Part shown: positions 26,219 to 30,111 of the stretch, piece by piece | Position numbering within the stretch: the stretch's first letter is position 1 | Layout of the letters: every line of letters begins with the position of its first letter | From: Sphingomonadales bacterium | GTDB lineage: Bacteria; Bacteroidota; Bacteroidia; NS11-12g; UBA955 | Reading direction: 5' to 3' | DNA: 36,029 nt | NCBI GenBank assembly: GCA_016872175.1 | Contig: VHBA01000024.1 | Location: 1 to 36,029, forward strand | Translations under genes and position numbers: made by a program | Notes under the pieces: model-generated | The model's database searches: none | What the model was told of the DNA's origin: nothing | Seen by the model: only the letters and a program-made list of their open reading frames with translations

Positions 26219-27994
26219 GTGGGAACTCAAAATACGCGCATATGGCTTTTCGCTGTACTGATTTTATCAGCATGCATAAGGCTTTGGGGCATATCTGAAG
26301 TTAGTTTTACCTATGATGAACTGAGCACCATTTTTAGGGCAAAAGCGGTTACCTGGCACGACCACTGGCAGCAAGGTGTAATGCCCGATGGACACCCGCC
26401 GGGCATGCAAACCCTTATTTGGCTTTGGGTGCAGCATTTCGGAGAGCACGCCCCTCTGATGCACACTGTGCTTGCTCTATTCTCAACCATATCGGTATAT
26501 TTTGTTTTCAAAACCGCCGAAACCCTTTCCACACCGAGCAAAGCCCTTTCCGTTGCACTCTTATATTCCCTTTCCTATCTGCCCTTGCTGTGGGGAAATC
26601 AGATACGACCTTATTCGCTTGGCATGTTTTTCTGCAATGCCTTTTTCTGGCAGTGGGCTTTAATCTGGACGGGAAAAAGAACGAATAAAAGGGCTTATAT
26701 TGTTTTGGGAATATTGGGCGCCGCCTGTGCATGGATGCATTACTTCGCGATACTGCCATTGTTACTGCTGGGATTAATTGGAATCATCAAGCAGCATAAA
26801 AATAGGGTAAAGTGGCTTTTTTGTGCTCTCATGGCTTTTTTGTTGTTTGCCCCTGCCCTACCGGTTTTTTTGCATCAGTTGGGTGTAGGCGGACTTGACT
26901 GGCTGGGAAAGCCCGGTTTGGATTTCCCGCTAAAACACTTGCAATATTTACTGAATGGCATGCTTTACATGGCTTTATTGGTAGTTGCATGGACATTACT
27001 ATGGCGTTGGCAAAAACCTGAAAAAAAAGACCGACAATTGGCACTGCTCGGCATTTTGGTATTTTTCTTTCCCATGGTTTTTGCATTTATTTGGTCTTGG
27101 TGGCAAAAACCGGTTCTACAGCACTCCGTATTGATGTTTAGCACTCCATTTTTTTTCATGGGAGCAATCAGTCTTATCCCGAATAAAAAGCTACTTTTAT
27201 TTACCCCTTTGATGACGCTGCTGCTGGGTTTTGGACTGATACAATCAGGATTTTTCGGTGATGGCCGAAAAGATGTTTACCAGGAACAGGCGAAGGTGCT
27301 TAAAACCGCCTGTGGCGAAAAGAAATTACTGCTGGCGGATGGACCCGAAGATGTTTTGATGTACCATCTTTTCCATGAACATGATGTTTGTCTGCCAAAA
27401 TTCATAAGTAATTCACAAATCCCGTTTTCATATAACCGATTGTGGCGTATTTGGAATGATTGGTCATTTAAAAATAATCCCATTATTCTTGCGGTCAATT
27501 CAGGCAGCCATCCGGGTATTATTCCACTGCTTGAGCACTGGTCGGGCAAAGAAGCCCGACACCATTATTTTATAGGTGGCGAGTTGGTTTACCTGAATGA
27601 TTCGGGAACAAACAATAAGATTACCTATCAAACGCAAATTGTTGAAACGAATACGTCATCTGATATTCCGTTGATAAAGGTTGGTTATCAAAAAAACGAT
27701 TTGATTGTCATTCACATCCCTGATTCCTTGGCCGAAAATAATGTTGAGCTAATTGGCAGCATGCACGATGGCGACAAACAAATTGACTGGCGCAGTATTA
27801 AGAAAACAGAATTTAACAATGTGGGCGACGGGAGCTTGTTTTTATTTATCAAAACCGCTGATATACCCAGTGTTTGCTACGATACAAGACTTTCTATTTT
27901 GTTAAAGACAAAGAAACCGGGAAGAAAAACCCGCATGCAATACAGACTTTGCCGCGCCAATCCGGATATGTATGGACCGGCGTGGTTTGAGTAA
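26219..27994 (+). CDS. GT-C (PMT/ArnT-like) membrane glycosyltransferase
   Basis: This 591-residue protein has about ten or more membrane segments over its first 380 residues and a soluble C-terminal part of about 200 residues. The first outer loop carries TYDELSTIF (acidic DE pair) and DGHPPGMQTLIW, and later WGNQIRPYSLG. These are hallmarks of GT39/GT83-type enzymes that use polyprenyl-phosphate sugars on the periplasmic side. The acceptor (protein, lipid A or glycan) cannot be inferred. The start is GTG 26219; the nearby ATG at 26215 is in another frame and no in-frame ATG exists close by. It follows the secreted-protein gene by 25 bases. Confidence 0.82.
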   Translation: MGTQNTRIWLFAVLILSACIRLWGISEVSFTYDELSTIFRAKAVTWHDHWQQGVMPDGHPPGMQTLIWLWVQHFGEHAPLMHTVLALFSTISVYFVFKTAETLSTPSKALSVALLYSLSYLPLLWGNQIRPYSLGMFFCNAFFWQWALIWTGKRTNKRAYIVLGILGAACAWMHYFAILPLLLLGLIGIIKQHKNRVKWLFCALMAFLLFAPALPVFLHQLGVGGLDWLGKPGLDFPLKHLQYLLNGMLYMALLVVAWTLLWRWQKPEKKDRQLALLGILVFFFPMVFAFIWSWWQKPVLQHSVLMFSTPFFFMGAISLIPNKKLLLFTPLMTLLLGFGLIQSGFFGDGRKDVYQEQAKVLKTACGEKKLLLADGPEDVLMYHLFHEHDVCLPKFISNSQIPFSYNRLWRIWNDWSFKNNPIILAVNSGSHPGIIPLLEHWSGKEARHHYFIGGELVYLNDSGTNNKITYQTQIVETNTSSDIPLIKVGYQKNDLIVIHIPDSLAENNVELIGSMHDGDKQIDWRSIKKTEFNNVGDGSLFLFIKTADIPSVCYDTRLSILLKTKKPGRKTRMQYRLCRANPDMYGPAWFE

Positions 27995-28083
27995 CGAAAA
28001 ATTACCGGATCATTTCTGTCACTTTTTGGCTCGATATGGGTGGATTCTGTAACAAAGCCGGGGTTAGGAAAAACACGGAGCAA

Positions 28084-28119
28084 CCCTGTAGAGACGCAAA
28101 ATTGTGCGACTCTACAGGG
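28084..28119. repeat. Imperfect palindrome (CCCTGTAGAG type)
   Basis: CCCTGTAGAG (28084-28093) pairs with CTCTACAGGG (28110-28119). After one mismatch CGCA pairs with TGCG, leaving a 6-base loop. It looks like the dispersed GTAGAGACGC-type palindromes seen in intergenic DNA of several bacterial groups, a comparison made from memory. Confidence 0.7.
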
Positions 28120-28190
28120 CCGTCAATGGTTTTGGCTCCACCTTTTTCCACAAAAAGATGGAGGAAAGAAAATGGCAGCTTTTCTTTGTC

Positions 28191-28211
28191 ACTTTTTGGC
28201 GCCCAAAAAGT
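28191..28211. repeat. Perfect 9-bp palindrome with 3-base centre
   Basis: ACTTTTTGG (28191-28199) and CCAAAAAGT (28203-28211) flank CGC. The same word, GTCACTTTTTGGC, also occurs at 28018-28030 without its partner arm. Confidence 0.7.
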
Positions 28212-28226
28212 AACCAAAAAGGCTGT

Positions 28227-28328
28227 CACGATTTAAGGCGCCCTGCGCAGGCTATCCCGGGCCTCTTGCCGGTTTGCACCCTCCACTTCGTTTCGGGCTG
28301 CGAGGCCCTCCGCGCTCTGAAAATCGTG
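28227..28328. repeat. G/C-rich element bounded by inverted CACGATTT
   Basis: CACGATTT (28227-28234) is matched by AAATCGTG (28321-28328). Just inside, GGCGC and GCGCTC extend the symmetry imperfectly. The 86-base interior is G/C-rich. It could be a non-autonomous repeat element; I see no target-site duplication. Confidence 0.5.
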
Positions 28329-28397
28329 CCAAGCGGGGAAAAAGAATTATTGGCACACAAGGCAAATTTTAGCCGAATGTGCAATGTGTTCTACCTC

Positions 28398-28561
28398 ACC
28401 CCTGCTGGAGAGGGGTAATTGTGAAGAAATTGCAATCACTGGCAATAGCTGGGGTGTGTTTATTTTCTCCGTTGCAAACACCCACGCTTTCCTCCCCACA
28501 ACACACCCCGGTTTGTTAGCACAGATAACATCTATTTCGCATTTACCCCTCTCAAGAGGGG
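28398..28561. repeat. Nested inverted-repeat element of about 165 bases
   Basis: Outer arms: GAGAGGGGTAATTGTG (28408-28423) against CGCATTTACCCCTCTC (28538-28553), 13 of 16 matching. Inner arms: CTGGGGTGTGTT (28449-28460) against AACACACCCCGG (28500-28511), with 11 perfect pairs and one G-U. Each outer arm also forms its own small hairpin: ACCCCT/AGGGGT at 28398-28416 and CCCCTC-TCAA-GAGGGG at 28546-28561. The layout is MITE-like or that of a structured RNA. There is no coding content. Confidence 0.6.
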
Positions 28562-28591
28562 ATTGAATTAGCGCAAAAACATGTCCTATAT

Positions 28592-28629
28592 GGTCGGTCT
28601 CACTCCGCTGCGCTTCGCAAAGACCAACC
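28592..28629. repeat. Stem-loop GGTCGGTCT / AGACCAACC
   Basis: GGTCGGTCT (28592-28600) pairs with AGACCAACC (28621-28629) with one mismatch, around a 20-base G/C-rich loop. It is another intergenic repeat-like structure with no T-run. Confidence 0.5.
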
Positions 28630-28850
28630 AGCGGGAAATTTTTCCTGGCCGCTCGCATATTCTTCAATCATGATTATTGAATTTTTCATAATCATTTCCC
28701 CTTCGGAAAACACCGATAGCCCGCTGTTGGTGCAACTAGCAACCACTGTGTTCCATGTATGAATGGATAGTAGAATAAATAATATTTTTTTATACTATTC
28801 AAAATAAAAATGCTTTAAATAAATAGCAACTTAATTACTATTCTGGTTCA

Positions 28851-29564
28851 TTAATTCGGGCTAGCCCCAAGATCTTTATCCCTGTGACGCTTAATTCTGG
28901 AAAGACCTTGACGCCACATCCAAATATTAAATACAATAAAAACAATTAAAATAGAAACAATAAATCCAACATTAACTGCACCATTTGCGGAGGCATACAT
29001 CAATATAAAATCATAGGTTCCATGCAGTAAAACAGGAACCAATAAACTAAGCATTCTATGATAATTTGTATCTCTTCCTGATTCAAATTTCGATAAAGAT
29101 AAATAATATCCCATGGGAACCGCAAACAGCATGTGTCCGGGAACTGCAAATATAGCCCGCTGCACGGCAACACCTAATCCATTGGTTTCAGAACCCATAA
29201 CGTACATCACGTTTTCCAAAAGGGCGAACCCCATTGAAATAAAAATAGCATATAAAATACCATCAAAATATTGGTCAAAATCTTTGGCCCGCTGAATTAT
29301 CCAGTAAAAGATTAGCCACTTGGCAAATTCTTCAGGGATAGCAGCCATGAAAAATGCGTTGAAGAAAGATTTTTCTCCGGCGGAAGCCATAGATGGCGCA
29401 AACGTTACAATGATTTGGGTTAAAACGAGTGTTATTGCGATAGAAAGTACGCCTCCAAAAAACGCTTTCACGAGCATTTGCAAGGGTTCTTTTTTAAGAT
29501 CATGGCGGTAAATTAAATACATAATGAACAACGCCGGGGAGATTGAGGATAGGAGAAGTGTCAT
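28851..29564 (-). CDS. PrsW-family intramembrane metalloprotease
   Basis: This 237-residue membrane protein has about seven or eight hydrophobic segments. The conserved family residues are visible: Glu78-Glu79 in IPEEFAKW, GFALLEN with Glu117, His144 in VPGHMLFA and His181 in LLHGTYDF. PrsW proteins, related to the CPBP/Abi superfamily, cleave membrane proteins; B. subtilis PrsW starts degradation of an anti-sigma factor. No sigma/anti-sigma gene is adjacent, so the substrate is open. The C-terminus is a short basic tail. It has its own promoter (29589-29618) and ends against the repeat-rich island. Confidence 0.9.
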   Translation of the reverse strand: MTLLLSSISPALFIMYLIYRHDLKKEPLQMLVKAFFGGVLSIAITLVLTQIIVTFAPSMASAGEKSFFNAFFMAAIPEEFAKWLIFYWIIQRAKDFDQYFDGILYAIFISMGFALLENVMYVMGSETNGLGVAVQRAIFAVPGHMLFAVPMGYYLSLSKFESGRDTNYHRMLSLLVPVLLHGTYDFILMYASANGAVNVGFIVSILIVFIVFNIWMWRQGLSRIKRHRDKDLGASPN

Positions 29565-29588
29565 AGATTAGAGTAGTAAGTTGAAATA

Positions 29589-29618
29589 CAAATGTATGCG
29601 TATATTCATTATTACAAA
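29589..29618 (-). promoter_or_regulatory. Promoter of the PrsW gene
   Basis: On the minus strand TTTG (29615-29618) and a perfect TACATTTG (29589-29596) are separated by 18 bases, one less than the usual range. The ATG follows 24 bases after the -7 box. Confidence 0.55.
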
Positions 29619-29742
29619 ATTCCCCATGCAAAGAGCCTTGGTTTCAGCATAATACCATTATTTTTCTTAAAATGAAGACTAAACAAATAGATTTACAACC
29701 AAGTACATTGCTGTTAACTTTCATTGGGTTGCACATTTCAAA

Positions 29743-29772
29743 AATTTAATTTTATTTATATCAAATTAAATT
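29743..29772. terminator. A/T-only 10-bp hairpin below the PIN remnant
   Basis: AATTTAATTT (29743-29752) and AAATTAAATT (29763-29772) pair perfectly around a 10-base loop, 34 bases beyond the end of the PIN remnant. It is a possible weak terminator. The rest of the 242-base gap (29565-29806) holds only the PrsW promoter that I can see. Confidence 0.3.
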
Positions 29773-29806
29773 ACGCTTTTTAAAGGTTTTAATGAAGGAG
29801 CAGCGG

Positions 29807-30064
29807 CTAAACCGTTTTCACAAGCTTCAAAAAATCAACCGGCGTCATCAAAGGCAGTTCTGATTTTTTAAAATCTTTGATATTTCGAGTTAGAATCAAA
29901 TCCACCTGTCCCAAGTGCAAGGCAGTAGCATACTGAATTCCATCTTCAAAAATGGCGAAATCGTTTTGCAGGGCCTTCAAAATCTTTTCTTTCCCGGTTC
30001 CGGCCAACGCTATCCATTTCAGCAAGGTTTTCAAAATAACGATGGTCTTTGCAATAATATACAA
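29807..30064 (-). pseudogene. C-terminal remnant of a PIN-domain (VapC-like) toxin
   Basis: The 85-residue frame matches only the second half of a PIN-domain RNase toxin: a helical stretch, then DFAIFEDGIQYATALHLGQVDLILTR (with the conserved D/E-D pair), NIKDFKKSELPLMTPVDFL and a short end. Complete PIN toxins are about 130-145 residues and begin with an xDTNVxLD strand that supplies the first catalytic Asp. That part is missing, and only 47 bases separate this frame from miaE, too few to hold it. The first codon would be TTG. No antitoxin gene is next to it. The most likely reading is a decayed toxin-antitoxin locus. Confidence 0.65.
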
Positions 30065-30111
30065 ATACGATTATACGTATTTTTTTAATTATTTTACACG
30101 TGTCAAATTTT

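Follow-up and report, generated by a model that had tools for sequence, protein, structure and literature searches.

A nested inverted-repeat element, probably a MITE-like copy of a hairpin-ended DUF559 element family of Bacteroidota

MITEs are short, ORF-less, multicopy elements that are present or absent between relatives and have terminal inverted repeats in common with a longer, gene-bearing form. All of this applies to the element described here, which appears as two nested pairs of inverted repeats at positions 28399–28561 of the window (the whole 36,029-nucleotide stretch of DNA that was analyzed). By contrast with MITEs, however, the gene of its longer form encodes a lone predicted PD-(D/E)XK nuclease and not a recognised transposase, both terminal repeats contain hairpins of their own, and no target-site duplication was found. 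REPINs or BIMEs, which are associated with RAYT, likewise consist of a pair of inverted hairpins with a short spacer between them, occur in many copies and spread with the help of one small trans-acting protein, a role that we infer for the DUF559 protein in the present case. They differ in that here no Y1 HUH transposase lies near the arms, a second, inner pair of arms is present and the partner protein has the Vsr fold. EDxHD/Vsr-type free-standing and intron homing endonucleases, such as I-Bth0305I, have the same fold as the partner protein, which also sits in a mobile element, but here there is no intron or intein; the element ends in inverted repeats, and copies of it that lack the ORF occur at unrelated sites. 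Finally, HEARO or IsrB-type elements also combine a nuclease gene next to a structured element with ORF-less copies. This likeness concerns the general layout only, whereas the DUF559 nuclease is unrelated, there is no Rfam match, and any transcript or guide would be hypothetical.

The MITE-like nature proposed in an initial annotation of this DNA is borne out by the existence of dispersed copies, by the absence of the element from the orthologous interval of a congener and by gene-bearing longer relatives with the same arms. We therefore assign the feature to a family of DUF559 elements, as a degenerate copy that is non-autonomous (MITE-like), with a probability of roughly 0.7. A search of the open-access literature returned no description of these elements, and none of the open-access papers mentioning DUF559 concerned a mobile repeat element, as judged by title and abstract.

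Architecture, copies and empty sites

Both the outer and the inner pair of inverted arms described in the initial annotation are present at this locus. The whole element extends from 28393 to 28580 (no strand assigned), an extent that is conserved among seven good copies, two in the home genome (G000, a 2.26 Mb draft) and five in the congener G002. Its reference orientation, judged from the other copies, is the minus strand of the window, while its parts are given here as read on the plus strand. The left outer arm (28400–28425), defined by an inverted-repeat search and by the copies, contains a worn hairpin, CCCCTGCTGGAGAGGGG (28399–28415), followed by TAATTGTGA. The right outer arm (28536–28561) contains the self-palindrome CCCCTCTCAAGAGGGG (28546–28561), which is free of mismatches, and over their 26 nt the two outer arms are 81% complementary. 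The inner arms, GGGGTGTGTT (28451–28460) and AACACACCCC (28500–28509), pair perfectly and are separated by an unstranded loop (28461–28499), the site of the DUF559 ORF in longer relatives. Each outer arm had been thought to fold on itself; this holds for the right arm, whereas the left one has decayed from the consensus CCCCTCTnGAGAGGGG found at the same place in the other copies. With its left hairpin damaged, the window copy is probably dead. When the copies were brought to one orientation, the arms, the spacers and about 19 nt outside one hairpin were all conserved, so that the element reaches beyond the right hairpin up to 28580 (terminal extension, 28562–28580, plus strand; consensus GACCGnTGAGCGCAAAAgCA, ATTGAATTAGCGCAAAAAC in the window). 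No Pfam family was detected in the two ORFs that cross the element (28104–28418 on the plus strand and 28347–28667 on the minus strand), in agreement with the earlier view that it has no coding content.

The interval is also as rich in repeats as had been claimed, with three further palindromic repeats at 28084–28119, 28182–28220 and 28590–28632. Look-alikes of two of the interval's palindromes occur near G002 copies, namely CCCTGTAGAGACGCA..TGCGTCTCTACAGGG, and GGTCGGTCTC..AAGACCAACC (contigs 65 and 8). The interval around the element looks like a sink for palindromic repeats. Farther along, in the gap between the PrsW and MiaE genes (29820–30090), the reverse strand resembles, by eye, a broken PIN-domain (VapC-like) gene.

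Searching the home genome and its relatives revealed dispersed copies with the same nested arms in G000 and in a congener. The second G000 copy, on contig C33, is 78% identical over 178 bp; G002 carries five full copies (contigs 8, 29, 36, 57 and 65) and G005 one decayed copy, whereas the search of 55 further relatives, drawn from the same genus, family and order, gave no match. There are, then, two copies in G000 and five in G002 rather than the single copy without relatives that the initial annotation had named as evidence against its reading. In the seven genomes of the genus sample, every site matching the outer-hairpin pattern CCCCTCTnnAGAGGGG with one mismatch allowed fell within these elements, mostly in pairs, and the inner-arm pair occurred nowhere outside these elements in 70 genomes of the family. 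The window's own arms had no match in an IMG/VR scan. Terminal inverted repeats, a lack of coding capacity and several dispersed copies are all features of MITEs.

Presence and absence were compared at the level of gene intervals, because the intergenic DNA is too diverged for base-precise junctions. The PrsW gene beside the element has no orthologue elsewhere in the genus and is therefore unusable as a synteny anchor, so the left neighbor, a PMT_2 glycosyltransferase gene (26219–27994) present in all seven genus genomes, was used instead. No arms were found downstream of this gene in G002, G003, G005 or G006, the G003 contig stopping shortly after the gene. In G004, 92 bp separate the PMT gene from MiaE, with RpiB next in line, and the alignment break corresponds to window positions 27999–30108, i.e. 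2.1 kb of extra DNA in G000 that comprises repeats, the element and the PrsW gene. The empty-site comparison suggested in the initial annotation thus identified, at the gene-interval level, an orthologous interval without the element. The second G000 copy and its DUF559 gene lie between rmuC-like and lspA genes, an interval that in G004, G005 and G006 is short and contains neither and that in G002 holds an apparent relic of the right end; for the G002 site on contig 8, the two flanking genes in G006 have no element between them. Presence or absence at orthologous places, seen here at the gene-interval level and not base-precisely, is a further MITE feature. Among 62 copies in three groups, whose ends are placed approximately, no target-site duplication of fixed length was found; some mobile-element families make none. 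At the lspA site, TTCGCGACTG / TTTGCAAACTG is a possible diverged duplication, too weak to claim.

A DUF559 gene linked to the arms

Longer members of the family have a single ORF between or beside the same arms, as expected for the autonomous partners of a non-autonomous element. All five of the ORFs tested in such members were DUF559 (PF04480; E 1e-22 to 1e-30). The full-length unit has the layout hairpin-GGGGTGTGT-ORF-ACACACCCC-hairpin, with an ORF of about 120–155 codons, and clean units enclose about 400–510 bp. Clean units were found at L191, L193 and L205, in genomes chosen for having arms (the loci and genomes that first yielded the partner gene were all selected for holding the arms). 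Others, among them L264, L268, L270, L271 and L274, came from a separate sample of 296 Bacteroidota genomes that was not arm-selected, its loci being ranked by similarity to DUF559 proteins partly drawn from arm-bearing loci. The ORF lies inside the arms at L191, L193, L205, L264, L268–L271 and L274. The orthologous-looking loci L268–L271 proved syntenic, so these four provide no independent insertion sites. L270 and L271 are orthologous sites of two species; their DUF559 units are 90–91% identical and both flanks only 72–76%, which may reflect either strong constraint on the unit or its repeated return to one site.

G000 has a single PF04480 gene (C33:2479-2871, E 1.6e-26), which stops 29 bp short of the second copy; it is beside an element copy, not inside arms. 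At the 29 DUF559 loci of the phylum-wide sample of 296 genomes, the hairpin was present in 24 of 58 flanking windows (41%) versus 1 of 290 distant ones (0.3%; Fisher 4e-20), and the inner arm in 33 of 58 versus 5 of 290 (Fisher 3e-25). Inner arms occurred on both sides at 13 of the 29 loci, and some DUF559 genes have other palindromes nearby, or none. We consider the link between the element and the nuclease gene to be well supported. In other genomes, then, a putatively autonomous partner with the same terminal repeats exists, as for MITEs, in the form of a DUF559 gene between arms, but its only ORF encodes a predicted PD-(D/E)XK nuclease and no transposase.

The DUF559 family is common in bacteria but has no assigned function. 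In eleven element-linked DUF559 proteins, E27, D56, E67, D69 and H73 are invariant. A profile search matched PDB 3hrl (E 5e-25) and I-Bth0305I (3r3p; E 2.3e-4), and an AlphaFold2 model (pLDDT 86) gave structural matches to 3hrl, I-Bth0305I (3r3p, Foldseek E 2.3e-4) and the Vsr endonuclease. Vsr is a mismatch nickase and I-Bth0305I is a homing endonuclease. The PF04480 match, the Vsr / I-Bth0305I fold and the conserved acidic and histidine residues identify the partner as a predicted PD-(D/E)XK nuclease, and because of the matches to 3hrl, I-Bth0305I and Vsr we regard it as fold kin of a homing endonuclease and a mismatch nickase. The nuclease is apparently intact in the family, its function here being a prediction.

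The arms could instead be those of an ordinary transposon, served in trans by an unknown transposase, with DUF559 as a frequent passenger or accessory nuclease. MITE-like copies usually follow a transposase, the five copies of G002 (a draft genome) coexist with no DUF559 match, and this nuclease fold has no known strand-joining activity. However, DUF559 is the sole ORF between the arms in every longer member read, the space enclosed in clean cases is too small for a transposase, and the association of arms with DUF559 recurs across the 29 loci. On balance, we judge the transposon explanation unlikely.

In several proteins, DUF559 is embedded in frame. In two relatives within the window's family (G024/G017, listed with L179/L178), it is found without stops inside leucyl-tRNA synthetase, by the editing domain (L179:325-3312), and inside the B12-dependent methionine synthase MetH (L178:97-3303). 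The copy in leucyl-tRNA synthetase is flanked by inverted arms, ATCACCTCACCCC..CCCCTCTCC..GGAGAGGGG, and looks like an in-frame insertion element. DUF559 is also in frame inside type IIG restriction-modification-like proteins at L180, L181, L182, L188 and L202 (L180 confirmed by Pfam), and at L209 it lies at the N-terminus of a RecQ-like helicase.

Mode of spread and competing explanations

In a full-length DUF559 element, as we use the term, a single ORF is enclosed by terminal inverted repeats that each combine two words, the self-complementary outer hairpin CCCCTCTYRAGAGGGG and the inner arm GGGGTGTGT...ACACACCCC. The association of arms and gene suggests that the DUF559 nuclease, and not a classical transposase, helps these elements to spread. 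The nuclease would recognise the arms, possibly extruded as hairpins, and would act in trans to nick or cleave the hairpin-ended arms and/or the target, as its Vsr and I-Bth0305I relatives do; host replication or repair might then copy the element into the break, although this copying step is a guess. ORF-less copies would spread in trans provided that a DUF559 gene is available, and the only such gene of G000, next to the second copy, is the candidate source of the home-genome copies. Taken apart from mechanism, the identification of the feature as a DUF559-element copy is highly probable. We are much less confident of the nuclease-driven mechanism, for which we see slightly less than an even chance, because no target duplication of fixed length was found and because strand joining has no known precedent among PD-(D/E)XK nucleases of this fold.

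The initial annotation had offered a structured RNA as the alternative to a mobile element. In such a case, by analogy with HEARO or omega RNA, the element might encode a guide or regulatory RNA that is paired with the DUF559 protein and spreads within that system. Consistent with this idea, a 176-nt stretch has a predicted RNA fold of −69.1 kcal/mol; dinucleotide shuffles average −42.7, and none of 200 folds as well (z −6.1), the z score of the stretch folded as DNA being −2.7. In Balneolaceae, moreover, the spacers are more stably folded than their shuffled versions (z −2.7 and −2.9), and one hairpin of the left spacer is kept through compensatory changes: among five sequences only, 97.5% of cells are paired, double changes affect 5 of 8 pairs, and the covariation score of 0.79, against 0.31 for shuffles, is reached by 0 of 500 shuffles. 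Structured single strands, as RNA or single-stranded DNA, therefore appear to matter in at least one branch. By contrast, the spacers in the window's genus showed no excess structure (z −0.6 and +0.7), and in Mucilaginibacter an element's own flanks and loops paired no better than swapped ones. The arms are conserved in sequence without covariation; their words are nearly invariant in 35 Mucilaginibacter-type copies, which leaves them unable to show covariation and points to recognition of the sequence. There was no Rfam match at the gathering score anywhere in the window, and a promoter search, which covered the consensus type, gave a single promoter-like match, as in shuffles. The RNA alternative thus finds little support in this genus, the compensatory changes being confined to the Balneolaceae relatives, and we regard it as improbable.

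Pairs of inverted REP hairpins moved by RAYT, a Y1 HUH transposase, would also account for hairpins in inverted order, and Y1_Tnp genes are indeed present in G000 and its relatives. However, in G000, G002 and three other congeners the Y1 genes lie away from these hairpins, which have no associated Y1 (PF01797) RAYT gene, and the gene within the arms is DUF559, not Y1. A REPIN or BIME origin is accordingly very improbable. The RAYT-like Y1 genes read in G002 and G000 (L033 and L035; G002:C11 and G000:C5) adjoin other palindromes of their own, e.g. CGACCCCGGCGGGGTCG and CGAACCCGGAGGGTTCG, located downstream and separate from the element. Static regulatory hairpins (a terminator, attenuator or mRNA-stability element) would fit the intergenic location and the strong hairpins, but we give them almost no credence, as the arms are not followed by a T-run, terminator-like sites are no more frequent than in shuffles, and the same element is absent from this place in congeners and present at unrelated loci.

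The wider family in Bacteroidota

The DUF559-element family extends well beyond the window's genus. We scanned GTDB contigs for GGGGTGTGTK-N25..52-MACACACCCC; among the matches listed, to which all figures refer, most belonged to Bacteroidota or Balneolaceae and bore CCCCTCTYRAGAGGGG hairpins outside the inner arms, while those from Actinomycetota and a few other groups had no outer hairpins and look like chance matches or other repeats. A common architecture of CCCCTCTYRAGAGGGG hairpin, GGGGTGTGTT arm, loop, AACACACCCC arm and hairpin was found in Mucilaginibacter, Bacteroidaceae and Balneolaceae. The two spacer lengths differ by subfamily: about 4/23 nt in Mucilaginibacter, 4/5 in Bacteroidaceae, 31/41 in Balneolaceae and about 35/36 in the window's genus. 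Four genomes reached through the scan matches contain 102, 86, 161 and 54 exact outer hairpins.

It is possible that DUF559 elements form a separate class of transposable elements, a proposal that we make tentatively and that is more apt to fail than to hold. Such a class would be characterized by hairpin ends, a two-word terminal repeat and mobilisation by a lone PD-(D/E)XK nuclease with the Vsr / I-Bth0305I fold, with no transposase, recombinase or reverse transcriptase. Its ORF-less copies would account for up to >100 hairpins per genome, and in some Bacteroidota it would have entered essential proteins in frame, namely leucyl-tRNA synthetase and MetH. If DUF559 does mobilise hairpin-ended elements, this protein family would acquire a role, much of the palindromic repeat content between genes in Bacteroidota genomes would be explained, and nuclease-only spreading would join the recognised modes of DNA movement.

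At two loci (L079 and L096), the element occurs in tandem arrays with a period of about 144–156 bp. Several Mucilaginibacter copies (L073, L085, L087, L112, L156 and L170) are enclosed by the longer inverted repeat ATAGCCGTTAACTTAAG..CTTAAGTTAACGGCTAT and look as though another palindromic element had received them as insertions or carries them.
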